DNA from: Pedococcus sp.
GTDB lineage: Bacteria > Actinomycetota > Actinomycetes > Actinomycetales > Dermatophilaceae
Direction of reading: 5' to 3'
NCBI GenBank assembly: GCA_025936615.1
Contig: JAICSZ010000067.1
Span: 1 to 8,469 of the forward strand
DNA: 8,469 nt
The position numbers and the translations under genes are program-made. The notes beneath the pieces are model-generated. The model saw only the letters and a program-made list of their open reading frames with translations, did no database searches and was not told the DNA's origin. Below, piece after piece: positions 1 to 8,469 of this stretch. Position 1 is the stretch's first letter. Each line of letters starts with the position of its first letter.

Positions 1-708
1 ACGATCAACGGCCGCGTGGTCCACGAGGCCCGCGTCGAGATGGGCCGCACACTCGCCCGCGAGCACCCGGCCGACGCGGACCTGGTGATCCCGACGCCGG
101 AGTCGGGGACCCCGGCGGCGATCGGGTTCGCCCAGGAGTCGGGTATCCCCTACGGCCAGGGGCTGGTCAAGAATGCCTACGCCGGGCGCACCTTCATCCA
201 GCCCTCGCAGACGATCCGGCAGCTCGGGATCCGGCTCAAGCTCCACCCGCGGCGCGAGGTGGTCAAGGGCAAGCGGCTCGTAGTCGTCGACGACACGATC
301 GTGCGCGGCAACACCCAGCGTGCGGTGGTGCGGATGCTGCGCGAGGCGGGCGCTGCCGAGGTGCACCTGCGGATCTCGGCGCCGCCGGTGAAGTGGCCGT
401 GCTTCTACGGCATCGACTTCCCGACCCGCGCGGAACTGATCGCCACGGGGATCGGCGTCGAGGAGATCTGCAACTCGATCGGTGCCGACTCCCTCGGCTA
501 CATCTCCGAGGAGGGGATGGTCGCCGCCACCGAGCAGCCCACGTCGGCGCTGTGCACAGCGTGCTTCACCGGCCGGTACCCGGTGGAGCTGCCCGACGAG
601 TCGCGGTTCGGCAAGAACCTGTTCGAGACGCTCCCGATCGACGTCGACGTCGATGGCGTGTCACTGGGGCTCGGCGGCGGCGCGGCCGACGCCCTCACCC
701 GCCCCTAG
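1..708 (+). CDS. purF: Amidophosphoribosyltransferase, C-terminal half (partial, 5' end outside window)
   Basis: PurF makes 5-phosphoribosylamine from PRPP and glutamine, the committed first step of purine synthesis, in the cytosol. The reading frame is open from base 1, so the glutaminase domain with its N-terminal cysteine nucleophile lies upstream of the window; 235 codons of the phosphoribosyltransferase half are present. The type I PRTase signature VVVDDTIVRGNT is at 280-315. Three cysteines match the [4Fe-4S] ligands of the B. subtilis-type enzyme: WPCF (Cys codon 400-402) and the CTAC pair (553-555 and 562-564); the fourth would be upstream. Other family blocks are ESGTPAAIGFAQESGIPYG and SIGADSLGYIS. 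The frame ends at TAG 706-708. purM, the usual next gene, lies downstream but is separated by an opposing membrane-protein gene. Nothing looks defective in the visible part. Confidence 0.96.
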   Translation, partial: TINGRVVHEARVEMGRTLAREHPADADLVIPTPESGTPAAIGFAQESGIPYGQGLVKNAYAGRTFIQPSQTIRQLGIRLKLHPRREVVKGKRLVVVDDTIVRGNTQRAVVRMLREAGAAEVHLRISAPPVKWPCFYGIDFPTRAELIATGIGVEEICNSIGADSLGYISEEGMVAATEQPTSALCTACFTGRYPVELPDESRFGKNLFETLPIDVDVDGVSLGLGGGAADALTRP

Positions 709-767
709 GTCACCGTCGAGAACGCACGACGCGCTGAAGAATCGCATTGCGCTTCGGCGTGTTGCGC

Positions 768-1688
768 TCACTCGACTGGGGCGGCGACCGAATCGGTGGT
801 CTCAGGCGCTGGAGCAGGAGCGGGAGTCGGGGCAACGGGCCCGCCGCGGTGCGGCTCGTTCCAGAGCTCGATCGTCTGGGTGAGCCAGTAGGTCGCGAAC
901 TGGCCGATCAGCAGTGCCTCGAGCCAGAACACCCAGTTGTCCAGCCACCCCTGCCACGGGCCGGCCACCACGACGACGGCGATCGAGGCCACCATGAGCA
1001 CGAACCCCCAGAAGTAGCGGTTCCACAGGTGCTCCCGCCACGGTCGGCCGTCCTGCTCGGCCTGCTTGTGCGCCAGACCCCAGCCGCTGATGAACACGGT
1101 CCCCACGATGCCGACGAAGAGCATCAGCGCCGAGCCGTCGTGCCCGTGGCACATGAAGGTGCCCCGGCCGAACAGGTAGAACCCGGCAAGCACCAGGAAG
1201 GCCGCCACCGAAACGGCGATGGCAATGCCTACGCCCTTGGACAGCTCGCGCTCGGCGGCGGGCGTGGCGAAGACCTGGATCCACATGACGACGGCGAACG
1301 CCAGCGCGGCCAGGATCAGCAGCGCCCCGACGTTGTTGCGGATGGCCAGCTGCACGTCCTGCGGGATGGCGCTGGGCACGCAGCGCGCCTCGGGACGCGT
1401 CGGGACGAAGGCCACGATGAACGCGAAGAAGCCCGACCCGTTGAGCAGCACGTCCTCCAGAGGAGTGTTGCCCTGGTACACGATGAGGCATGCCCCGATG
1501 GCGCACAGGCTGGAGACGAAGACGGCCCGCACCGGCGTGTAGTACGACGCACTGATGGACTGCAGCAGGGCTCCCCGCGACAGGACGTACAGCCCCACCG
1601 CCACGAAGAGCAGCAGCACGAGCAGCACCATGGCCAGCCGCAGGAAGCGATAGGTGCGCAGGAGGTCGAACTGGTACGAGCTGGTCAC
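768..1688 (-). CDS. Uncharacterised multi-pass membrane protein (SISASYYTP motif family)
   Basis: This is a 306-residue integral membrane protein of unknown function. I chose GTG at 1688 because an AAAGGGG Shine-Dalgarno (1695-1701) precedes it by 6 nt. An ATG at 1727 would add 13 residues that merely translate the Shine-Dalgarno region and has no good site of its own. Hydrophobic stretches suggest about seven or eight helices: roughly residues 16-34, 52-67, 80-92, 112-135, 146-168, 175-197, 218-238 and 244-262. Between helices 1 and 2 lies SISASYYTPVR, followed by VYQGNTPLEDVLLNGSG. I recall similar signatures in bacterial hypothetical membrane proteins but cannot name the family. The short CxxxHGHDGSA-like loop (FMCHGHDGSA) could bind metal, which is speculation. 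The C-terminal tail is a low-complexity Pro-Ala run. The gene is divergent from purM and convergent with purF, so it is not part of the purine operon. Confidence 0.85.
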   Translation of the reverse strand: MTSSYQFDLLRTYRFLRLAMVLLVLLLFVAVGLYVLSRGALLQSISASYYTPVRAVFVSSLCAIGACLIVYQGNTPLEDVLLNGSGFFAFIVAFVPTRPEARCVPSAIPQDVQLAIRNNVGALLILAALAFAVVMWIQVFATPAAERELSKGVGIAIAVSVAAFLVLAGFYLFGRGTFMCHGHDGSALMLFVGIVGTVFISGWGLAHKQAEQDGRPWREHLWNRYFWGFVLMVASIAVVVVAGPWQGWLDNWVFWLEALLIGQFATYWLTQTIELWNEPHRGGPVAPTPAPAPAPETTDSVAAPVE

Positions 1689-1774
1689 GGCGGACCCCTT
1701 TCCCTCGTGGGTCCCTGCATTTGCCATGGTCCACGTCCACTACCCGTCGTGTCATCCGTCATCTGCAGTGCCTC

Positions 1775-1780
1775 TAGGCT
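1775..1780 (+). promoter_or_regulatory. -10 box of a predicted leaderless purM promoter
   Basis: TAGGCT matches the actinobacterial TANNNT -10 element and ends 6 nt before the purM GTG at 1787, so transcription would begin at or within a base of the start codon. No Shine-Dalgarno precedes that GTG. A direct repeat of GTCATC (1751-1756 and 1758-1763) lies where the -35 region would be and may be the -35 contact or an operator. Confidence 0.5.
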
Positions 1781-1786
1781 TGTCGC

Positions 1787-2908
1787 GTGACCGAGGGCCC
1801 TACCACCTACGCTTCCGCCGGCGTCGACGTCGAGGCCGGTGACAAGGCGGTCGAGCTGATGAAGGCCAGCGTTCGCCGGGCCACCCGTCCGGAGGTGCTC
1901 GGCGGCCTCGGCGGGTTCGCGGGCATGTTCGACGCCTCCGCGATCGCCCGGATGACCCGGCCAGTCCTGGCCACCTCCACCGACGGCGTCGGCACGAAGG
2001 TAGCCATCGCGCAGGCCCTCGACCGGCACGACACCATCGGCTTCGACCTGGTCGGCATGGTCGTCGACGACATCGTGGTGTGCGGCGCTGAGCCGTTGTT
2101 CATGACTGACTACATCGCCACGGGCAAGGTCGTGCCCGAGCGGGTCGCGGCAATCGTGTCGGGCATCGCCGCCGCCTGCGAGCAGGCGCGGGTGGCGCTC
2201 GTGGGCGGGGAGACCGCAGAGCACCCCGGCCTGCTCGAGCCCGACGAGTACGACGTGGCGGGTGCCGCCACCGGCGTCGTGGAGTATGCCGCGGTGCTGG
2301 GTCCGGACCGTGTCGCACCTGGCGACGTGGTCCTGGCCATGGGCTCCAGCGGGCTGCACAGCAATGGCTTCTCTTTGGTGCGCAAGGTGTTTCGCGATGC
2401 GGGCTGGGAGCTGGACCGCCAGGTCGACGAGTTCGGGCAGACCCTCGGCGAGGAGCTGCTCACCCCGACCCGGGTCTACTCCGCCGACCTGCTCGAGCTC
2501 ATCCGCACGGACGGGGTCGACGTCCACGCGCTGTCCCACGTCACGGGCGGCGGGCTCGCGGCCAACCTGGCCCGGGTCCTTCCTCCTCACGTGGTCGCCC
2601 GCCTCGACCGGGCCACCTGGACGCCACCGCCGGTCTTCCAGACGGTCGGTGCCCTCGGCAGCGTTCCTCGCTCCGACCTCGAGCGCACGCTCAACATGGG
2701 GGTGGGCTTCGTGGCGCTGCTGCCCGCCGCCCACGTCGACGCAGCCACGCGGCTCCTCGAGCAGCGCGGCATACCGGCTTGGGTGATCGGCCAGACCCAC
2801 GGGGCCGAGGACGCGCCCCTGGACGACCACCACGAGGTGGTCCGCGGCGCCAAGGGAGTCGCGGGCGGCGCCGTGCAGGTCGTGGGCGACCATCCGTCGT
2901 CCGGCTGA
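1787..2908 (+). CDS. purM: Phosphoribosylformylglycinamidine cyclo-ligase (AIR synthetase)
   Basis: PurM closes formylglycinamidine ribonucleotide to aminoimidazole ribonucleotide using ATP, step 5 of purine synthesis, in the cytosol. The 373-residue product is slightly longer than the roughly 345 residues typical of enterobacterial and Bacillus forms, as is common in actinobacteria. Family blocks appear in order: YASAGVDVEAGDKAVELMK near the N terminus, GGFAGMFD, ATSTDGVGTKV, a GFDLVGMVVDDIVVCGAEPL segment, LVGGETAEHPGLL, GLHSNGFSLVRKV, HVTGGGLAANLARVLP and NMGVGFVALLP. The GTG start is chosen from the N-terminal family block and the -10 box just upstream; the mRNA is probably leaderless. 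The gene contains two copies of the decamer GTATGCCGCG (2284 plus, 2765 minus). They cause its only TAT tyrosine codon and an ATA isoleucine codon. It looks fully functional. Confidence 0.97.
   Translation: MTEGPTTYASAGVDVEAGDKAVELMKASVRRATRPEVLGGLGGFAGMFDASAIARMTRPVLATSTDGVGTKVAIAQALDRHDTIGFDLVGMVVDDIVVCGAEPLFMTDYIATGKVVPERVAAIVSGIAAACEQARVALVGGETAEHPGLLEPDEYDVAGAATGVVEYAAVLGPDRVAPGDVVLAMGSSGLHSNGFSLVRKVFRDAGWELDRQVDEFGQTLGEELLTPTRVYSADLLELIRTDGVDVHALSHVTGGGLAANLARVLPPHVVARLDRATWTPPPVFQTVGALGSVPRSDLERTLNMGVGFVALLPAAHVDAATRLLEQRGIPAWVIGQTHGAEDAPLDDHHEVVRGAKGVAGGAVQVVGDHPSSG
2284..2293 (+). repeat. GTATGCCGCG decamer, copy 1
   Basis: Exact copy inside purM, read as Tyr-Ala-Ala with TAT GCC GCG. 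The other tyrosines I checked in purM use TAC. Confidence 0.6.
2765..2774 (-). repeat. GTATGCCGCG decamer, copy 2
   Basis: Exact copy on the minus strand inside purM (plus strand CGCGGCATAC). It is read across Arg-Gly-Ile-Pro and uses the rare isoleucine codon ATA. Confidence 0.6.
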
Positions 2909-2939
2909 CGATCGCCGGCTGAGTAGTCGAGCGGGTGGT

Positions 2940-2954
2940 GCCCCAGGAAGGGGC
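2940..2954 (+). terminator. Possible weak terminator hairpin after purM
   Basis: GCCCC (2940-2944), loop AGGAA, GGGGC (2950-2954), followed by CTTCTC. It lies 31 nt after the purM stop. The stem is only 5 bp and the pyrimidine tail is poor, so it may not act alone. Confidence 0.3.
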
Positions 2955-3050
2955 CTTCTCGGAGGCGTCCTCGGGTGTGGTGCCGGTGCCTGCCTGGTCG
3001 CCTGCTGAGCTGAGCGGCGTCCTCGTCTTCTCGTGACCGCCCACCCGGCG

Positions 3051-3056
3051 TACCTT
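3051..3056 (+). promoter_or_regulatory. -10 box of a predicted leaderless promoter (paralogue A)
   Basis: TACCTT is followed by exactly 6 nt and then GTG at 3063. This is the same geometry as at purM. It supports GTG 3063 over the in-frame upstream GTG at 3033, which would sit in front of this box. No convincing -35 element is visible. Confidence 0.45.
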
Positions 3057-3062
3057 CGAGGC

Positions 3063-3548
3063 GTGGACGACCCCGACCCCGAGGACGTCGTGGTCCGGCA
3101 GTACCGCTACCTCCTGCGCACCGCCCCGGCCGACGCGCTCGAGGCTGCCCACGTGCAGGCCCTCTCCGAGCTCGACGACAACGCGTGCGCTGCGGTCCTG
3201 CGCGCGGTCCAGACGGCGCTGGTCTGCGGGCTGCGGCTGTCGTTCGACCAGCCACGGCAGCTCGCACACCTCATCACCCTCGGTGAGCGTCGCGTGCCGG
3301 GCGCGTTCCTCGCTGCGTTGGAGCGGCACTGGAAGCGCGAGCTGGCTGACCACGTCGTGCTCGCCGAGGCGTCGTTCGGGCTCTTCGCGGGGTATGCCGC
3401 GTGGGACGGGTCCGATCCCGACGCACCAGAGCAGGTGTGGGCCGACGACGAGTTCGCCGAGCCGTGGCACGCCGCTCTGCAGCCCGTCTACTACCGGGGC
3501 TACCACGGCGGCCCGGCCAGCGCCGACCTGTTCGGCGGCGCAGGCTAG
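3063..3548 (+). CDS. Uncharacterised protein, tandem paralogue A
   Basis: The function is not recognised. This is a 161-residue soluble, probably mostly helical protein with no signal peptide or membrane segment. It shares a clear set of blocks with the gene at 4446-4997: VVRQYR-LLRTAP-DALEAAH near residues 9-30, AVL-AVQT-LV-G-RL around 40-57, AHL---GE-R-P-AFL-A around 65-83, and EA-FGLF-GYA-WDG-DP around 101-120. The two are paralogues, and 3971-4441 is a shorter, more distant relative. The tail is tyrosine- and glycine-rich (PVYYRGYHGGP). The GTG at 3063 is chosen because of the -10 box 6 nt before it. One GTATGCCGCG decamer at 3392 encodes Tyr-Ala-Ala in the conserved GYAAWDG block and gives the gene its only TAT codon among those I checked. 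The gene is intact. Confidence 0.78.
   Translation: MDDPDPEDVVVRQYRYLLRTAPADALEAAHVQALSELDDNACAAVLRAVQTALVCGLRLSFDQPRQLAHLITLGERRVPGAFLAALERHWKRELADHVVLAEASFGLFAGYAAWDGSDPDAPEQVWADDEFAEPWHAALQPVYYRGYHGGPASADLFGGAG
3392..3401 (+). repeat. GTATGCCGCG decamer, copy 3
   Basis: Exact copy in paralogue A, read Tyr-Ala-Ala. Identity with the intergenic copy at 7103-7112 extends to 14 bases (GTATGCCGCGTGGG). At the equivalent place paralogue C uses TAC GCG AGC, so the decamer is not a by-product of the protein motif. Confidence 0.6.
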
Positions 3549-3605
3549 GGGCCGGTCCCCGTCACAGCGTCGGCACGCCGTCGGGCGGGCGCGGCCGCGG
3601 GTCAG

Positions 3606-3704
3606 CCGGGTCAGCAGGTCCAGCACGGCGGCGCCGCGCTCCTGGTCCAGCGCCGAGGTGGGCCCGTCGACGAGCAGGACCTTGGGGTCGTTCATCGACG
3701 CTCT
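3606..3704 (-). pseudogene. Relic of an ABC transporter ATPase (Walker B/D-loop segment only)
   Basis: Read on the minus strand, about 33 residues are recognisable: RASMNDPKVLLVDGPTSALD, followed by QERGAAVLDLLTRLT. This is the Walker B and D-loop region of an ABC ATPase, most like the small lipoprotein-export or MacB-type cassettes. The Walker A, Q-loop, LSGGQ signature and H-loop are all missing. The catalytic glutamate after the Walker B aspartate is Gly (GGG, one base from GAG). Homology stops at both ends: after RLT the frame runs into unrelated sequence, and before RAS it enters a region coding well on the opposite strand. Nothing here could make a working ATPase. It is a decayed remnant lying in the gap between two members of the tandem family. 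Confidence 0.6.
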
Positions 3705-3915
3705 CGGGGAGGTCCTGCTCGTCGCCGCTCACCTGCACCTCCCACTGCGCGCCGCCGTCCTCGTCCACTGGGTGGTGGCGGTGTCGCGCACCGCGCTGGA
3801 CGAGGCGGACCACTCCCACGCGCTCGACCTGGTCGCGCTCCCCGTCGTGGTGGACGCCGAGCGGCCGTCCCTCAAGGCCATGCTCCAGACGCCGCTCGGG
3901 CTCGTCTCGATCTGA
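3691..3915 (+). pseudogene. Probable 5'-truncated ORF of unknown family
   Basis: From about 3691 to TGA 3913-3915 the plus strand reads as a well-formed protein, with nearly every third base G or C. It begins FIDALGEVLLVAAHLHLPLR and ends LKAMLQTPLGLVSI. The alternating hydrophobic and charged pattern and clean codon use argue that it is, or was, coding. No good start exists: the nearest in-frame candidates, TTG 3682 and GTG 3658, have neither a Shine-Dalgarno nor a -10 box, and they lie inside the antisense ABC relic. I therefore read it as the 3' part of a gene that lost its 5' end. If GTG 3658 is used the product would be 85 residues. The family is not recognised, and it does not align obviously with the flanking paralogues. 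Confidence 0.4.
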
Positions 3916-3956
3916 GGCTCCCTCATCTGGCGGATCCGCCGCCCCGGACGGACACC

Positions 3957-3962
3957 TAGCGT
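3957..3962 (+). promoter_or_regulatory. Candidate -10 box upstream of paralogue B
   Basis: TAGCGT lies 8 nt before ATG 3971. No Shine-Dalgarno is visible between them, so the mRNA may be leaderless or have a leader of one or two bases. The spacing is slightly longer than at the three other genes. Confidence 0.35.
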
Positions 3963-3970
3963 CACGTCCC

Positions 3971-4441
3971 ATGGGGCTGCTGCGACTTTCCCGCCGCGCT
4001 CCCCGGGAGGAAACCCCGCCCCCGGAGCGACCCGAGGTCACGGACTACCGCGACTTCCTGCTCACCGCACCCCGCGAGCAGCTCGTGGCGGTGCACCACC
4101 AGGTGCTTCCCGGGCTCGACCTCTTCTTGCGCGCGGTCATCCTCAACACCGCCTGCCGGCTCACCGGGGCAGGGGCAGGCGTCGCGCCCGAGGACACGTT
4201 CGGCCTCACCCAGCTCGTGCTGGCCAGTGGCGGCGCCGAGCGGGTCGCGATCCTCGAGGCCTACGACGACGCCGTGCGCCACCGGCTGGCCCATGCGGTG
4301 GGGGTCGCCCTGAGGCCCCCGGTCGAGGAGGAGCCCGTCGAGGAGGAGCCCGAGGAACCGGCGCCGGAGCAAGGGACCGACGAAGGCACGAAGCTCAGCC
4401 AGGTGGACGAGCCGCGCAGGGAAGCCACCCTCCTACCCTGA
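3971..4441 (+). CDS. Uncharacterised protein, divergent tandem paralogue B with acidic tail
   Basis: The function is not recognised. This is a 156-residue soluble protein. After a basic and proline-rich N terminus, residues about 23-50 read VTDYRDFLLTAPREQLVAVH, matching the YR-LLRTAP-DALEAAH block of genes A and C. The next segment (FLRAVILNTACRLTG) parallels their AVL-AVQT-LV-G block. The conserved FGLF-GYA-WDG end is absent. Instead the chain ends in an acidic Glu/Pro tail containing a perfect 15-bp tandem duplication (4322-4336 and 4337-4351) that encodes VEEEP twice. The ATG at 3971 is preferred because the family block follows shortly after it and a -10-like box precedes it. The TGA overlaps the -10 box of the next gene, which starts 4 nt later. 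Confidence 0.7.
   Translation: MGLLRLSRRAPREETPPPERPEVTDYRDFLLTAPREQLVAVHHQVLPGLDLFLRAVILNTACRLTGAGAGVAPEDTFGLTQLVLASGGAERVAILEAYDDAVRHRLAHAVGVALRPPVEEEPVEEEPEEPAPEQGTDEGTKLSQVDEPRREATLLP
4434..4439 (+). promoter_or_regulatory. -10 box of a predicted leaderless promoter (paralogue C)
   Basis: TACCCT is followed by exactly 6 nt and ATG 4446. Its last base is the T of the upstream gene's TGA, so the promoter would lie inside the end of paralogue B. This suggests paralogue C can be expressed independently of it. Confidence 0.45.
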
Positions 4442-4445
4442 GTGG

Positions 4446-4997
4446 ATGAGCCGGTTCATCCGCAGGGATCGGCACGGCCGGTCGGCCTCCGATCCAGACG
4501 TCGTCGAGGACCCCGTGGTCCGCCAGTACCGCTTCCTGCTCCGCACTGCGCCACGAGACGCGTTGGAGGCGGCGCACACCGAGTCCCTTCGCCGGCTCAG
4601 CGACGCTGACCGCGCTGCCGTGCTGACTGCCGTCCAGACCGGGCTGGTGACCGGGCAGCGGCTCACACCCGACTCGGTGACCAAGGTCGCCCACCTCGTG
4701 GTCAACGGCGAGCACCGTGACCCCCGTGCGTTCCTGCGCGCCTGCCCGCAGGAGAGCCTGCGCGCGCTCGCCGGGGCCGTCATCCACAGCGAGGCCCTGT
4801 TCGGGTTGTTCGGCGGGTACGCGAGCTGGGACGGAGCCGATCCCGAGCCAGTGGACGACTCGGCGTGGAGGGACGCCGGATTCAACCCGGACAGTGGACG
4901 CTGGAGCCTCGACCGTGAACCGGGGCGTGACAACTCCGGCATCGTCAGCGGCGCGGGTGGTGGCTTTGGCGGCGACGGCGGTGGAGGCGGGGGCTAG
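4446..4997 (+). CDS. Uncharacterised protein, tandem paralogue C with glycine-rich tail
   Basis: The function is not recognised. This 183-residue protein is the closest relative of 3063-3548. Shared blocks are DPVVRQYRFLLRTAP with DALEAAH (about residues 22-44), AVLTAVQTGLVTGQRL, AHLVVNGEHRDPRAFLRA and SEALFGLFGGYASWDGADP (about 117-135). It has an extra basic N terminus (MSRFIRRDRHGR) and an extra C terminus ending in an almost pure glycine run (GGGFGGDGGGGGG). No membrane segment or signal peptide is seen. The ATG is supported by a -10 box 6 nt upstream; no Shine-Dalgarno is present. The TAG at 4995-4997 interlocks with the stop of the convergent cysteine hydrolase gene within CTAG (4994-4997), so the two transcripts must overlap or end inside coding sequence. 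Confidence 0.8.
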   Translation: MSRFIRRDRHGRSASDPDVVEDPVVRQYRFLLRTAPRDALEAAHTESLRRLSDADRAAVLTAVQTGLVTGQRLTPDSVTKVAHLVVNGEHRDPRAFLRACPQESLRALAGAVIHSEALFGLFGGYASWDGADPEPVDDSAWRDAGFNPDSGRWSLDREPGRDNSGIVSGAGGGFGGDGGGGGG

Positions 4998-5551
4998 CCA
5001 TCGCCGAGCAGCTCGTCGGTCGTCGTGAAGGACACGAGCGGCTGGTAGAGGGCCATCACGTCGAGCGCCTTCTGGTGGTTCCCGTCGGTGGAGCCGGCAC
5101 AGGCGTCGGTGACCACCGTGATGTCGGCACCGTCGTCCGCGGCTGCCAGCACCGTTGAGATGACGCAGCAGTCGGTGGCTACGCCCGTCACGACCAGCTT
5201 CGGCTGGTCACCGACGACGGCGCGCAGGTCCTCGCCCCACTTCCCGAACGTCGTGGCCGTGACCACCTGCCCCGCCTGCGCTGCCACCTTCGACACCTCG
5301 TCGGTGAACTCGTACAGCTCGCTGTCCGGAGGCTGCAACGCCCACGGGAACGACTCGTAGTACGGCACCCACGACCCGCTCGGCTCCGACGGCGCCACGA
5401 ACCGGGTGAACACGCTGCGCCCGCCCCACTCGGAGGCGAGGCGGACGACGTTCGCCGCCGCCGCGGCATACCTGGGCGCACGCCACTCGCTGGACGGGTC
5501 GCCGAAGACGCGCTGCAGGTCGATCGCGACGAGCCAGCCGGGGTCGGTCAC
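4994..5551 (-). CDS. Isochorismatase-family cysteine hydrolase
   Basis: This is a 185-residue cytosolic enzyme of the isochorismatase-like cysteine hydrolase fold, the group that includes nicotinamidase, N-carbamoylsarcosine amidase, biuret hydrolase and ureidoacrylate hydrolase. The general acid/base aspartate is D11 in LVAIDLQRVF. The nucleophile region is GVATDCCV, with C129 in the usual nucleophile place and C128 beside it. The catalytic lysine expected 11 residues before L109 is not there (T98-A99); the nearest lysine is K104 in TTFGKWGEDL. The GTG start overlaps the permease TGA (GTGA, 5548-5551) and has a strong AGGAGG (5559-5564) 7 nt upstream, so translation is coupled to the permease. 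The substrate is unknown; an imported cyclic amide, ureide or nicotinamide-like compound is a reasonable inference. It carries one GTATGCCGCG decamer (5462). Confidence 0.88.
   Translation of the reverse strand: MTDPGWLVAIDLQRVFGDPSSEWRAPRYAAAAANVVRLASEWGGRSVFTRFVAPSEPSGSWVPYYESFPWALQPPDSELYEFTDEVSKVAAQAGQVVTATTFGKWGEDLRAVVGDQPKLVVTGVATDCCVISTVLAAADDGADITVVTDACAGSTDGNHQKALDVMALYQPLVSFTTTDELLGDG
5462..5471 (-). repeat. GTATGCCGCG decamer, copy 4
   Basis: Exact copy on the coding strand of the hydrolase, read Tyr-Ala-Ala (TAT GCC GCG) in RYAAAAANV. The other tyrosines I checked in that gene use TAC. Confidence 0.6.
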
Positions 5552-7011
5552 GTGCCCTCCTCCTGGCGGCGCACGGTTCCGCGCCGCAGCAACAGGGTGC
5601 CGACCAGCCCGATGACGAGGGCGAGCAGCACCCCGAGGTTGGCGTAGGCCCAGCTGCCGTCCTTGCCCCCGAGGCCGAGCGGGCCGAGCAGGTAGCCCTG
5701 CCAGTTGTTCCACGACGCCGCGTCGGCGAACAGGTTGATCACCAGGCCCCAGCCGACCACCGAGGCGAGCACCATGAGCCCGATCGAGGTCCAGTCCCAC
5801 TGGCCGTAGCGGCCACTGCCGTCGAAGAGGGCGTCCTCGTCGTAGTCGCGGCGGCGCAGCCAGATGTCCGCGATCATGATCCCGGCCCACGCGGCGAGCG
5901 GCACCCCGAGGGTGATGAGGAACGACTGGAACGGCCCGAGGAAGTCCTCGGCGAAGAACACCACCCAGATCGTGCCCAGGGTGAGGATGACGCCGTCGAT
6001 GAACGCCGCCCTGGGTCGGGGGATGCGCACGCCGAGGGACAGCAGCGTCAGCCCGGAGGAGTAGATGCCGAGCACCGCCCCGCTGACCAGTGCGAGGATC
6101 GCGGCCACGAGGAACGGCACCAGCACCCAGGTGGGCAGGATCGTGGCCAGGGTGCCGACCGGATCGGCGGAGATGCCGTCCTGGAGCTTCTTGTCCGAGC
6201 CGGCGAGCAGCAGTCCGTAGAGGACGAGCAGCACGGGCGCCAGGGCACCGCCGAAGGTGTTCCACCACACGATCGAGCCGCCGGAGGCGTCGCGGCGCTG
6301 GTAGCGGGACCAGTCGGCTGCGATGTTGATCCACCCCAGGCCGAAGCCCGTCATCACCATGACCAGTGCGCCGATGACCGCCTGGGTGGACCCGGAGGGG
6401 ATCGCGGTGACGGTGTCCCACTTGACGTGGTCGACGGTCATCGCGATGTAGAGGATCGTCACGACGCCGGTGATCCAGGTCAGCCAGGACTGCAGCCGCA
6501 TGATGACGTGGTAGCCGGCGACCGAGGCGGCGACGATGAGCGCGGCGGTCACGAGCGCGGCCACGATCTTGGTGGCCGTGCCACCGCTCCACCCGAGCTC
6601 GCGGAAGATCGTGGCGGTGGCCAGGGTCGCGGTGATCGCAAGGAAGGTCTCCCACCCGATCGACGTCAGCCACGAGACGACGCCCGGCACCTTCTGGCCG
6701 GTGACCCCGAACGCCGCCCGCGACAGGATCATCGTCGGGGCGGAGCCGCGCTTGCCGGCGATCGCGATGACGCCGCACAGCAGGAAGGACACGATGATGC
6801 CGACGACGGCCACGAGGACGCCCTGCCAGAACGAGATCCCGAACTGGAGGGTGAACGCGGCGTAGGAGATCCCGAAGACCGAGATGTTGGCGGCGAACCA
6901 CGGCCAGAACAGGTCTCTCGGCCTGGCGGTGCGCTCCGCCTCCTCGATGATCTCGATGCCGGTGGTCTCGACCCCGAGCCGCTGGGTCTGCGCCCGCGTG
7001 TCAGTGCTCAT
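5548..7011 (-). CDS. NCS1-family purine/cytosine permease
   Basis: This is a 487-residue membrane transporter of the nucleobase:cation symporter-1 family (CodB-like), expected to import a nucleobase or related cyclic compound with H+ or Na+. About twelve hydrophobic helices can be counted. Family features are the FWPWFAANISVFGISYAAF first helix after a charged N terminus, KRGSAPTMILSRAAFG in the loop after helix 2 (the NCS1 substrate-loop region), GLGWINIAADWSRYQ mid-protein, and a basic C-terminal tail (LLRRGTVRRQEEGT). I start at ATG 7011 (MSTDTRAQTQRLG). The open frame extends 49 codons further, but that extension is Arg/Pro-rich and not like the family. There is no clear Shine-Dalgarno at 7011. 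The gene is first in a coupled pair with the hydrolase downstream. Substrate specificity cannot be read from the sequence. Confidence 0.93.
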   Translation of the reverse strand: MSTDTRAQTQRLGVETTGIEIIEEAERTARPRDLFWPWFAANISVFGISYAAFTLQFGISFWQGVLVAVVGIIVSFLLCGVIAIAGKRGSAPTMILSRAAFGVTGQKVPGVVSWLTSIGWETFLAITATLATATIFRELGWSGGTATKIVAALVTAALIVAASVAGYHVIMRLQSWLTWITGVVTILYIAMTVDHVKWDTVTAIPSGSTQAVIGALVMVMTGFGLGWINIAADWSRYQRRDASGGSIVWWNTFGGALAPVLLVLYGLLLAGSDKKLQDGISADPVGTLATILPTWVLVPFLVAAILALVSGAVLGIYSSGLTLLSLGVRIPRPRAAFIDGVILTLGTIWVVFFAEDFLGPFQSFLITLGVPLAAWAGIMIADIWLRRRDYDEDALFDGSGRYGQWDWTSIGLMVLASVVGWGLVINLFADAASWNNWQGYLLGPLGLGGKDGSWAYANLGVLLALVIGLVGTLLLRRGTVRRQEEGT

Positions 7012-7049
7012 GGCCAGAGCGTGCCAGACCAGCGGGTGCGAGGACAGCA

Positions 7050-7062
7050 CCTCGGGCCGAGG
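7050..7062. promoter_or_regulatory. Palindrome upstream of the permease, candidate operator
   Basis: CCTCGG-G-CCGAGG is a perfect 6-bp inverted repeat around one base, centred about 45 bp upstream of the permease ATG. Its size and place fit a repressor or activator site for the permease-hydrolase operon. GC-rich palindromes also arise by chance, and no regulator gene is in the window. Confidence 0.3.
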
Positions 7063-7102
7063 CCACAGCCCAGGGCCGCAGGCCCCGGGCGGAAGGTGCC
7101 CA

Positions 7103-7132
7103 CGCGGCATACGGGCATGGCGAGATGCCGCG
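7103..7132. repeat. GTATGCCGCG decamer, copy 5, in an inverted repeat
   Basis: The decamer is on the minus strand at 7103-7112 (plus strand CGCGGCATAC). Eight of its bases are repeated in the opposite direction at 7125-7132 (ATGCCGCG), giving an 8-bp inverted repeat with a 14-nt spacer. This is the only intergenic copy. It lies in the 187-bp gap between the permease and DUF3073 genes, about 95-120 bp upstream of the permease start. Confidence 0.5.
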
Positions 7133-7190
7133 CGGGTGCGGCGGCGTGACACGGGCACCAGGCCCGCGCATGAGGTCGTGCTCGGTCAGC

Positions 7191-7216
7191 GCCTCGGGTC
7201 AGCCCTGACCCGAGGC
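7191..7216 (-). terminator. Strong 12-bp hairpin at the DUF3073 stop codon
   Basis: GCCTCGGGTCAG (7191-7202) and CTGACCCGAGGC (7205-7216) are perfect inverse complements separated by two bases. The stem covers the last codons and the TGA of the DUF3073 gene. No T run follows, so it would be a tailless terminator or an mRNA 3'-end stabiliser of the type common in GC-rich actinobacteria. Confidence 0.55.
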
Positions 7217-7393
7217 CCACTTTCCGTACTCGTCGTACTCGTCCTCACCCGAGTCGTCGGAGACAGGCTCCGGCTCCCGGTAGGTGGACCCGTGCAGTTC
7301 TCGCTCAAGCGCGCTCAGGTCGGTGTCGGGGGAGAAGTACTTCAGCTCCCGAGCAACCTTCGTCTGCTTGGCCTTGGCCCGGCCGCGCCCCAT
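7199..7393 (-). CDS. DUF3073 family protein
   Basis: This is a 64-residue protein whose N terminus MGRGRAKAKQTKVARELKY and following FSPDTDLSALERELHG are characteristic of the DUF3073 family, small conserved actinobacterial proteins of unknown role. The first half is basic and could bind nucleic acid or ribosomes. The second half is acidic (SDDSGEDEYDEYGKW). The ATG at 7393 has a good Shine-Dalgarno, GAGGGGG (7401-7407), 7 nt upstream. In Mycobacterium and Streptomyces the homologue sits beside purM, which supports the assignment and shows that the genes between 3063 and 7011 interrupt a conserved neighbourhood. The stop codon lies inside a strong hairpin. The role is unknown; the consistent link to purM suggests only shared ancestry of the locus. 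Confidence 0.93.
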   Translation of the reverse strand: MGRGRAKAKQTKVARELKYFSPDTDLSALERELHGSTYREPEPVSDDSGEDEYDEYGKWASGQG

Positions 7394-7435
7394 GGCGTGA
7401 CCCCCTCATGCGTCTGCCGGGACGGCATCGCTTCC

Positions 7436-7460
7436 GTCAGCGCCTCGTGGAGGCGTTGAC
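7436..7460. other. 11-bp hairpin upstream of the DUF3073 gene
   Basis: GTCAGCGCCTC, GTG, GAGGCGTTGAC. The two arms pair over 11 positions with one G-T wobble in the plus-strand RNA; in the minus-strand RNA the same position is an A-C mismatch. It lies between the dehydrogenase stop (7594) and the DUF3073 start (7393). It could terminate the upstream gene or be part of the DUF3073 leader. Pairing is better on the plus strand, where no gene ends nearby. Confidence 0.4.
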
Positions 7461-7593
7461 TCCACGGAGCGGTCCCGGGAATCGTGTATGTGTCGTGGGT
7501 ACAACGCTACAGGAGCGGTGCAAGTTGCGCGTCCCGGTTCCGGTCAGGGGTTGCGTGTCGCGCGCCACCCGACGGCGACCCGGGGAAGGCGTC

Positions 7594-8259
7594 TCAGTGG
7601 GCGGGCAGCCAGATGCCACCCGCCGCCTTGGCGGCCATCCGCTCCTCGGCCACGTGGTCCGCTGCCGCGGCAGGGGTGGTGCCGCGGGCGTCGGCGGTCT
7701 CCAGCACCTCGAGGGTGTGGTCGAAGATCGCCGAGGCGCCCTTCTTGGCCCGCTCGAAGTCGAACCCGTGCAGCTCGTCGCTGACCTGGATCACGCCGCC
7801 GGCATTGACGAGGAAGTCGGGAGCGTAGGTGATGCCGCGAGCCATGAGCTGGTCGGCGGTGCCACCCTCGCCCTCGCTGACGAGCTGGTTGTTGGCGGCA
7901 CCACACACGACCTTGGCCGTGAGTGCCTGGACGGTGGCGTCGTCGAGCGCCCCACCCAGCGCACAGGGCGCGTAGACGTCGAGGTCGGCATGCACGAGGG
8001 CGTTCGTGTCGGCGACGGCGTCGATCTCGGGGTGCTGCGTGCGAAGCGCGGCCACCGCGTCCTGGTCGACGTCGGTGACGACGACCCTGGCGCCGTCCTC
8101 GAGAAGGTGCGCGGCAAGGATGTGGCCGACCTTCCCGACGCCGGAGATCCCGACCGTGCGGCCCTCGAGGGTGGCTTCGCCCACCACGTGCTGCGCGCTG
8201 GCGCGCATTCCCTGGATGTCGCCGTCCGCCTTCAGCACCGAGGTTTCGCCGGCGCCGCC
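7594..8259 (-). pseudogene. vdh: Valine/leucine dehydrogenase, C-terminal NAD-binding part after an in-frame stop
   Basis: The 221 codons after the TAA at 8260-8262 encode the Rossmann domain of a Glu/Leu/Phe/Val dehydrogenase, which deaminates branched-chain amino acids with NAD. Visible are the dinucleotide fold GISGVGKVG, the strand end [15 protein letters not shown] and [17 protein letters not shown], all as in intact enzymes, and a normal C terminus (GGIWLPAH). The start of this piece is damaged: the family's GDxSxLTAYGVFQGM-like stretch reads [15 protein letters not shown]. Possible restarts are GTG 8238 and ATG 8208, but neither has a well-placed Shine-Dalgarno. The Rossmann domain alone lacks the catalytic lysine, so the piece could not be an active dehydrogenase. 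In Streptomyces vdh sits beside purM and the DUF3073 gene, which supports the name. Confidence 0.75.
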
Positions 8260-8469
8260 TTACTCCTGGTAGCTGCCGGTGGCTAAGTGGGTGGTCTCGC
8301 TGACCACGTCCATGTCGGCGACGTAGGTGCCCACGTCGCAGGCGGTGACGTAGCGGCCGTTCAGGCTCTCGACGAAGCGTCCGTAGGCGCGCAGCAGCTC
8401 GGGGGTCTTGTCCGTGGCGGGGTCGCCGATGATGACCGCCTTGCCGCCGCCGAGCTCGAGCCCGGCGAC
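8260..8469 (-). pseudogene. vdh: Valine/leucine dehydrogenase, N-terminal part ending at an in-frame TAA (partial)
   Basis: The frame runs in from beyond the window edge and contains the substrate-domain core: [20 protein letters not shown] with the glycine-rich lysine of the active site, [12 protein letters not shown], then [18 protein letters not shown] with the conserved aspartate. It then reads [10 protein letters not shown] and stops at TAA (8260-8262) where the family continues into a GGAGD segment. The same frame resumes that segment straight after the stop, so this is a nonsense change with no net frameshift. The leucine codon just before (8284-8286) is TTA, very rare in such genomes. 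Together with the downstream piece it is one broken gene, or one good gene with sequence errors at this point. Confidence 0.75.

Follow-up and report, generated by a model that had tools for sequence, protein, structure and literature searches.

A highly iterated octamer with strand-specific spacing in Dermatophilaceae and related actinomycetes, possibly acting like a DNA uptake sequence

The DNA uptake sequences (DUS) of the Neisseriaceae occur in dialects with a conserved core and in inverted pairs, and there are relatives without DUS, according to the available part of Frye et al. (PMC3630211). The cyanobacterial octamer HIP1 (GCGATCGC) is described in the accessible portion of another paper (PMC4390886) as palindromic and linked to orphan methyltransferases. 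Among actinomycetes, Flp pili are required for transformation in Micrococcus luteus, as stated in the available part of PMC4322843, and a term count in the obtainable text of that paper and of a second one on M. luteus (PMC8467076) did not return 'uptake sequence'. This study concerns an 8,469-nucleotide stretch of Pedococcus sp. DNA (contig JAICSZ010000067.1, positions 1 to 8,469), here called the window, in which the exact decamer GTATGCCGCG occurs five times. The five decamers belong to a genome-wide element, the hard core of which is the non-palindromic octamer GTATGCCG (its complement, CGGCATAC, differs from it) with a softer lineage-specific extension. Copies of the octamer in the same orientation are depleted within about 1 kb of each other and copies in opposite orientation are not, and the element may work like a DNA uptake sequence.

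Two of the five copies are inside purM, at 2284..2293 on the plus strand (core 2284-2291), where GAG TAT GCC GCG encodes E-Y-A-A, and at 2765..2774 on the minus strand (core 2767-2774), opposite to the gene, where CGC GGC ATA CCG encodes R-G-I-P. The third is at 3392..3401 on the plus strand (core 3392-3399) in a gene of 171 amino acids (3033-3548) with no Pfam match, as GGG TAT GCC GCG TGG; the fourth is at 5462..5471 on the minus strand (core 5464-5471) in an isochorismatase-like gene, as AGG TAT GCC GCG; and the fifth is at 7103..7112 on the minus strand (core 7105-7112), 91 bases upstream of the likely ATG (7011) of a cytosine/purine permease gene. Dinucleotide shuffles gave an expected number of 0.02 decamers, with five copies reached in none of 200 shuffles, and Markov models of orders 1 to 3 gave 0.008-0.024. 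A search of the window with one mismatch tolerated yielded no further copies. The first-pass annotation had reported the five copies with their positions and strands, the use of TAT GCC GCG in three of them (in purM, the 3033-3548 gene and the isochorismatase-like gene) and of ATA in a fourth, and a longer stretch common to two; all of this was borne out, the common stretch being GTATGCCGCGTGGG in the third and fifth copies. With the gene coordinates of this study, three of the four TAT codons in the window genes and their sole ATA codon (in the second copy) fall inside the motif. Because the nearest purM loci were those of Knoellia koreensis DB2414S (88% identity) and Phycicoccus sp. Root101 (87%), the window was assigned to the Dermatophilaceae group, and genome-wide tests were performed on relatives standing in for the window's own genome.

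The decamer was counted in 15 whole genomes reached via purM loci. K. koreensis contained 1,777 copies (reversed control, 14) and P. elongatus Lp2 1,197, whereas Phycicoccus sp. CSK15P-2, P. flavus, Mobilicoccus, Paraoerskovia, Cellulomonas and Streptomyces contained 7 or fewer each, and the remaining seven genomes 142-587. For P. elongatus Lp2, 40 evenly spaced 20-kb stretches were sampled (800 kb of 3.17 Mb), in which GTATGCCG was the strongest word, with 641 copies where an order-3 model predicts 28.7; YG (Y, pyrimidine) was preferred in the two bases after it. One-change neighbours of the eight core positions stood near background in this sample (GTACGCCGCG, for example, had 4 copies against 3.8 expected), with the exceptions of GGATGCCGCG (23 against 8.9) and GTAGGCCGCG (18 against 3.6). 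The proposal of the decamer as the unit was slightly off, as the hard core is the octamer and the last CG a lineage preference. K. koreensis, the nearest relative, has 3,986 octamers in 4.3 Mb, and the density in motif-rich genomes is about one per kilobase. Over 149 genomes of the family the number ranged from 7 to 4,724, with at least 600 in 81 genomes (termed motif-rich), 150-599 in 14 and fewer than 150 in 54 (motif-poor), limits chosen in this study. The ratio of octamer to reversed control had a median of 10 in the 81 motif-rich genomes (lowest 2.5) and of 2.0 in the 54 motif-poor genomes (highest 5.0); this control is only rough, and a few of the 'rich' genomes are weakly so.

The excess does not derive from the encoded proteins. 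Synonymous codon shuffling within genes reduced 476 coding copies to 44.8 in the P. elongatus sample and 365 to 26.2 in K. koreensis. All six frames showed the excess, one of them with only 3 or 4 copies, and the Tyr-Ala frame accounted for 258 of the 476 coding copies in P. elongatus. At x-Tyr-Ala-[VADEG] sites of this genome the octamer was present in 268 of 367 cases, with a preceding G at 299 (155 expected), GCC at 332 (200 expected) and TAT at 305 (92 expected). Similarly, GCA was used 142 times at [SPTA]-Ala-Tyr sites against 18.8 expected, and ATA 42 times at Gly-Ile sites against 2.0, while the pull on CCG in the Met-Pro frame was weak in P. elongatus (53 against 47) and clearer in K. 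koreensis (44 against 29). A motif-poor pool (23 loci, 2 octamers in 477 kb) was near expectation, with a mild excess of GCC (116 against 88.6) and GGC (87 against 71.2). In the K. koreensis sample, tyrosines in the context nnG-TAY-GCC-Gnn were encoded by TAT 169 times and by TAC 21 times, as against 160 and 2650 for all other tyrosines. The octamer thus accounts for the TAT codon anomaly there, holding 169 of the 329 TAT codons, and TAT GCC is not equally common elsewhere. The TLYAAR site of purF carried the octamer in 16 of 18 motif-rich and none of 50 motif-poor named loci holding the site; TAC is used in the two rich exceptions (L013 and L029), and TAT occurs in five poor loci without being part of an octamer.

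The octamer excess cannot be put down to chance, protein constraint or single-base mutation bias. Several synonymous positions are pulled toward the octamer at once, and deamination or a single biased repair process is therefore insufficient. The earlier idea that selection or drive acts on the DNA, protein constraint not being enough, was upheld by the counts in relatives, which lie far above both Markov and codon-shuffle expectation. Its variant, avoidance of GTACGCC alone, was refuted by the pull on the other octamer positions.

Summed over the 81 motif-rich genomes, the octamer stood 84,296 times on the forward and 84,411 times on the reverse strand, and in two genomes the counts on the two strands of each 20-kb stretch differed less than expected by chance (chi2 16.5 for 40 and 9.0 for 25). 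This statement on strand bias concerns total and per-stretch balance, the replication origin itself not having been located. Polar replication signals were rejected on this balance, as single-base mutation bias and protein constraint were on the counts, the codon shuffles and the per-position pull. The density in non-coding DNA was about twice that in coding DNA, and no part of the gene was preferred. When orientation was ignored, the spacing was that of a Poisson process (coefficient of variation 1.02); a pattern emerged only when orientation was considered. At short range, the enrichment of plus-then-minus pairs within 60 bp was 2.2- and 2.4-fold in the two main samples and 1.3-fold (1.27) in eight further genomes. 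Such pairs numbered 27 in intergenic DNA (14 in G012 and 13 in G001), and many of the intergenic pairs are near-perfect inverted repeats, as judged by sequence and not by folding.

Beyond 60 bp, consecutive copies alternated in orientation more often than they repeated it: 370 alternating and 196 same in P. elongatus, 285 and 137 in K. koreensis, 150 and 72 in the eight further rich genomes, and 77 and 51 in twelve named loci. The alternation did not extend past 1.5 kb in the two main samples. Same-orientation pairs were depleted out to about 1 kb, the ratio of observed to expected being 0.26, 0.50, 0.40, 0.59 and 0.75 for P. elongatus in successive bins spanning 60-1000 bp and 0.21 to 0.65 over that range in K. 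koreensis. Opposite pairs scattered around 1 (0.92-1.77 and 0.67-1.36, respectively), and more widely in the eight further genomes, where counts were smaller. Same-orientation pairs of seven control octamers gave 1.04 to 1.72. The exclusion was symmetric for 5' and 3' neighbours and was present when only pairs with both members coding were considered (143 same, 324 opposite).

The same dependence was visible at sites where the amino acids are fixed. Without a same-orientation copy within 750 bp, such a site carried the octamer with a chance of 0.77 (of 505 sites), which fell to 0.49 (of 259) with a copy on one side only and to 0.30 (of 33) with copies on both sides. No such rise was found with distance to opposite copies, for which the values in P. 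elongatus were 0.43-0.74, low values being seen for 0-150 bp (0.50 of 56) as well as for 2-3 kb (0.43 of 23). Because same-orientation copies exclude each other and opposite copies do not, it appears that a copy is required separately on each strand. Copies on one strand seem to fulfil a different need from those on the other, and one copy per kilobase or two largely satisfies either need.

The core of the octamer is constant and its flank varies with lineage, although several of the samples are small (some with 10 to 60 copies). The flank is YG in K. koreensis, P. elongatus and two further genomes (G057 and G074), TC or TG in Knoellia, CT in all 10 copies of an Intrasporangium chromatireducens locus, CC, TC or TG in Terrabacter and Humibacillus, and mostly TG or AG in pooled loci of Ornithinimicrobium, Serinicoccus, Leekyejoonella and Flexivirga. 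A purM tree was built from 81 rows, and a row was labelled positive when its locus held at least 0.2 octamers per kilobase; the labels come from short stretches, some below 9 kb, and the tree from a single gene. All 21 positive rows, the window included, were within one clade of 28 rows (Shimodaira-Hasegawa-like approximate likelihood ratio test support 98, by a quick method). The label needs five changes on this tree, of which the strongly supported branches alone force only two. The simplest history suggested by these sequences is one gain and four losses, the latter in Mobilicoccus, Arsenicicoccus, Kribbia, and Phycicoccus sensu stricto together with one metagenome-assembled genome. Two copy-poor stretches of P. 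elongatus contain transposase-like and island-like genes, as read from the sequence without a family search; about 29 kb of them is free of the octamer, and the copies there are in or beside apparent core genes.

From these patterns we consider GTATGCCG to be a highly iterated, non-palindromic self-DNA mark of an actinomycete clade (Dermatophilaceae, Ornithinimicrobium/Serinicoccus and Dermacoccaceae-type genera) that most likely works like a DNA uptake sequence, a view held with about even confidence. Natural transformation would favour DNA that carries the octamer on the strand taken up or processed, and octamer-bearing fragments would replace alleles without it. Such a sequence-selective transformation drive would explain the over-representation, the near-saturation, the dialects, the inverted pairs, the absence from foreign DNA and the loss in some genera. 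The strand-specific redundancy points to a reader that recognises one strand, and a separate copy would then be required on each within about 1 kb; the strand read might be the single strand that enters via ComEC or is handled by DprA, SSB or RecA. The reader would presumably belong to the transformation machine, be it the Tad/Flp pilus, ComEA/ComEC or a cytoplasmic single-strand protein. More tentatively, the octamer may represent a new class of signal, whose redundancy applies to each DNA strand by itself within about 1 kb and which forms two interleaved grids of approximately one copy per one to two kilobases on each strand.

The family does have ComEA/ComEC and Tad/Flp genes. ComEC was over cut-off in 145 of the 149 genomes, and the Tad-type ATPase TIGR03819 matched in 147 and was over cut-off in 135, although at the lower threshold 13 of 14 control genomes matched as well. 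The type IVa pilin signature PF07963 was found in 4 of 149. A direct repeat (on the gene strand GTCCACAG-N21-GTCCACAG, with 29-bp spacing) lies upstream of comEA-comEC, flp and tad genes; it was present in 21 of 24 genomes searched, with up to 21 copies per genome (0-1 for a reversed control), and examples are L130, L157-L196 and L227-L266 (e.g. L228, L231, L237, L244-L246 and L253). By reading in four genomes, its other neighbours include yraN-yifB-dprA-xerC, recA-recX, two ssb genes, a comF-like gene and several paralogues sharing an AbiEi-like N-terminus, and three of the elements have no called gene just downstream. NCBIfam placed YraN, the YifB family, DprA, RecA and one SSB over cut-off, and the second SSB and ComF below it; the Flp-like, DUF4192-like and AbiEi-like proteins had no NCBIfam match. 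The genes preceded by the repeat look like a putative competence regulon of actinomycetes. The AbiEi-like paralogues resemble each other and carry the competence-type repeat upstream in both rich and poor genomes (L230, L233, L234, L238-L240, L242, L247, L248, L252, L256, L257 and L260), and the one tested matched PF13338 just over cut-off.

Several results weigh against an uptake function, which is inferred, as motif-poor relatives hold the same machinery and no reader protein was found. The regulon is also present in motif-poor genomes (20, 21 and 14 elements in G095, G117 and G016), strict regulon elements are few (0-2) in the motif-rich G012, G057, G084, G074, G007 and G106, and the motif-rich G043, G047 and G048, perhaps incomplete, have no ComEC match. 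A comparison of 20-kb neighbourhoods of comEC and tad from 10 rich and 10 poor genomes revealed no gene that most of the rich share and all of the poor lack, and so no candidate reader; one cluster with no assigned role occurred in four of the rich genomes and none of the poor, and others in four of the poor and none of the rich. PF07963, ComEC, the Tad ATPase, RecC and three DNA-methyltransferase families were searched, and none tracks the motif. RecC was found in 24 of 81 motif-rich genomes and in 29 of 54 motif-poor ones (no search covered AddAB or AdnAB), PF01555 in 60 of 149, and, in 48 hand-picked genomes (26 rich, 22 poor), PF00145 in 18 rich and 15 poor and PF02384 in 19 rich and 19 poor. 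Strong orientation-specific exclusion is furthermore not a feature of the samples of DUS, which lean toward it, or of the uptake signal sequences (USS) of the Pasteurellaceae, which do not. Finally, eight hard bases with near-background neighbours are sharper than we would expect for a pilin-based preference.

Strand-specific redundancy would be explained equally well by a polar recombination or resection signal inside the cell, in which a machine starting from a break reads the octamer in one orientation and both orientations are needed within about 1 kb. Such a signal, serving ends of both polarities, fits the orientation-specific range and its symmetry for 5' and 3' neighbours. However, Chi in 450 kb of E. 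coli MG1655 is strand-biased (74:42, p 0.004) with an excess of same-orientation pairs (28 same, 14 opposite, p 0.04, in a small sample), RecC is distributed as given above, several lineages have lost the octamer, and a scan of two pools of motif-poor relatives for a substitute word returned only the competence-type repeat and weaker words, nothing comparable. We consider this explanation unlikely, and the Chi-like signal named by the first-pass annotation is disfavoured, with no strand bias and with same-orientation copies that repel. A strand-specific need and the absence of replication bias would also follow if the octamer marked strands for post-replicative repair, its own strand being modified with a delay, an unmodified copy denoting the new strand and one copy sufficing per repair tract of about 1 kb. 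The range of GATC-directed repair in E. coli is similar to this 1 kb. On the other hand, the motif-rich G022 has no match in PF01555, PF00145 or PF02384, G107 has only a PF01555 fragment below cut-off and G001 has none in PF01555. A repair mark is therefore very unlikely in our estimation, and the suggested methylation target is weakened, since two motif-rich genomes lack over-cutoff matches in the three families tried.

A binding site of a nucleoid or chromosome-organising protein, or another cellular signal, would agree with the random spacing when orientation is ignored, the presence on both strands and the lack of preference for a part of the gene. A simple binding site would not account for same-orientation exclusion without opposite exclusion, or for a trait missing in several nested genera, and this explanation appears quite unlikely. 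Conversion of GTACGCCG to GTATGCCG by a mutation bias or by mismatch repair (cytosine deamination or Vsr-like repair) could draw on TAC to TAT being the commonest synonymous route and on the large share of the Tyr-Ala frame. The preceding G, GCC, GCA and ATA are pulled too in P. elongatus, however, and GTACGCCGCG is at its expected number; biases all ending in the same eight bases would be needed, and this scarcely credible explanation is already contradicted. An uptake-like sequence thus stands as the best-fitting of the candidates proposed at first, short of proof.

In addition to the genes mentioned above, Pfam identified part of purF and a dehydrogenase of the Glu/Leu/Val type in the window. 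Three adjoining genes with no Pfam match (3033-3548, 3974-4441 and 4446-4997) look like one paralogous group, and parts of the first and the last are about 70% identical in DNA.

No report of such a signal in Actinomycetota was found in the open-access literature, among the matches listed; within that scope, the octamer would, if the uptake reading holds, be the first uptake-type or single-strand self-recognition mark in this phylum. The reader of a per-strand signal would then act on one strand, and the orientation exclusion makes the question of which strand it sees directly testable. An uptake mark would further imply that actinomycetes common in soil and water exchange genes selectively by sequence, and would offer a way to transform them.

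Like DUS (in the available part of PMC3630211), the octamer is non-palindromic, is present in thousands of copies, has a hard core with dialects, forms intergenic inverted pairs and has relatives without it. Unlike DUS, it is hosted by actinomycetes that have Tad/Flp genes but hardly any type IVa pilin signature, and the comEC and tad neighbourhoods compared yielded no receptor for it. It shares iteration, lack of a palindrome, occurrence on both strands and inverted pairs with USS, the loci of which were chosen by such a pair, but its sequence is unrelated. With HIP1 it shares high iteration, but GTATGCCG is not a palindrome and none of the three methyltransferase families is common to all motif-rich genomes tried. 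With Chi (GCTGGTGG) it shares a non-palindromic octamer in which polarity matters, whereas Chi is strand-biased with a same-orientation excess, and RecC does not track the octamer. The Chi excess within 2 kb was 1.6- to 1.9-fold over uniform, with small counts, in the 450 kb of E. coli K-12.

The DUS and USS samples were viral contigs selected for an inverted pair, with duplicates dropped by context, and provide a coarse control. At 60-1000 bp the ratio of same to opposite pairs was 0.46 (237/512, p 4e-24) and 0.35 (39/110) for the octamer, as against 0.84 (168/199, p 0.12) for DUS, 1.02 (48/47) for USS and 2.0 for the small Chi sample. At 60-500 bp, a bin picked post hoc, DUS gave 66 same and 94 opposite pairs (p 0.03), and consecutive DUS copies, with 239 alternating and 199 same (p 0.06), showed a weak lean toward exclusion; consecutive USS copies (100 alternating, 149 same) leaned the opposite way. 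Orientation-specific exclusion over about 1 kb is thus a quantitative fingerprint of the octamer, which USS and Chi do not have here and DUS has at most weakly.

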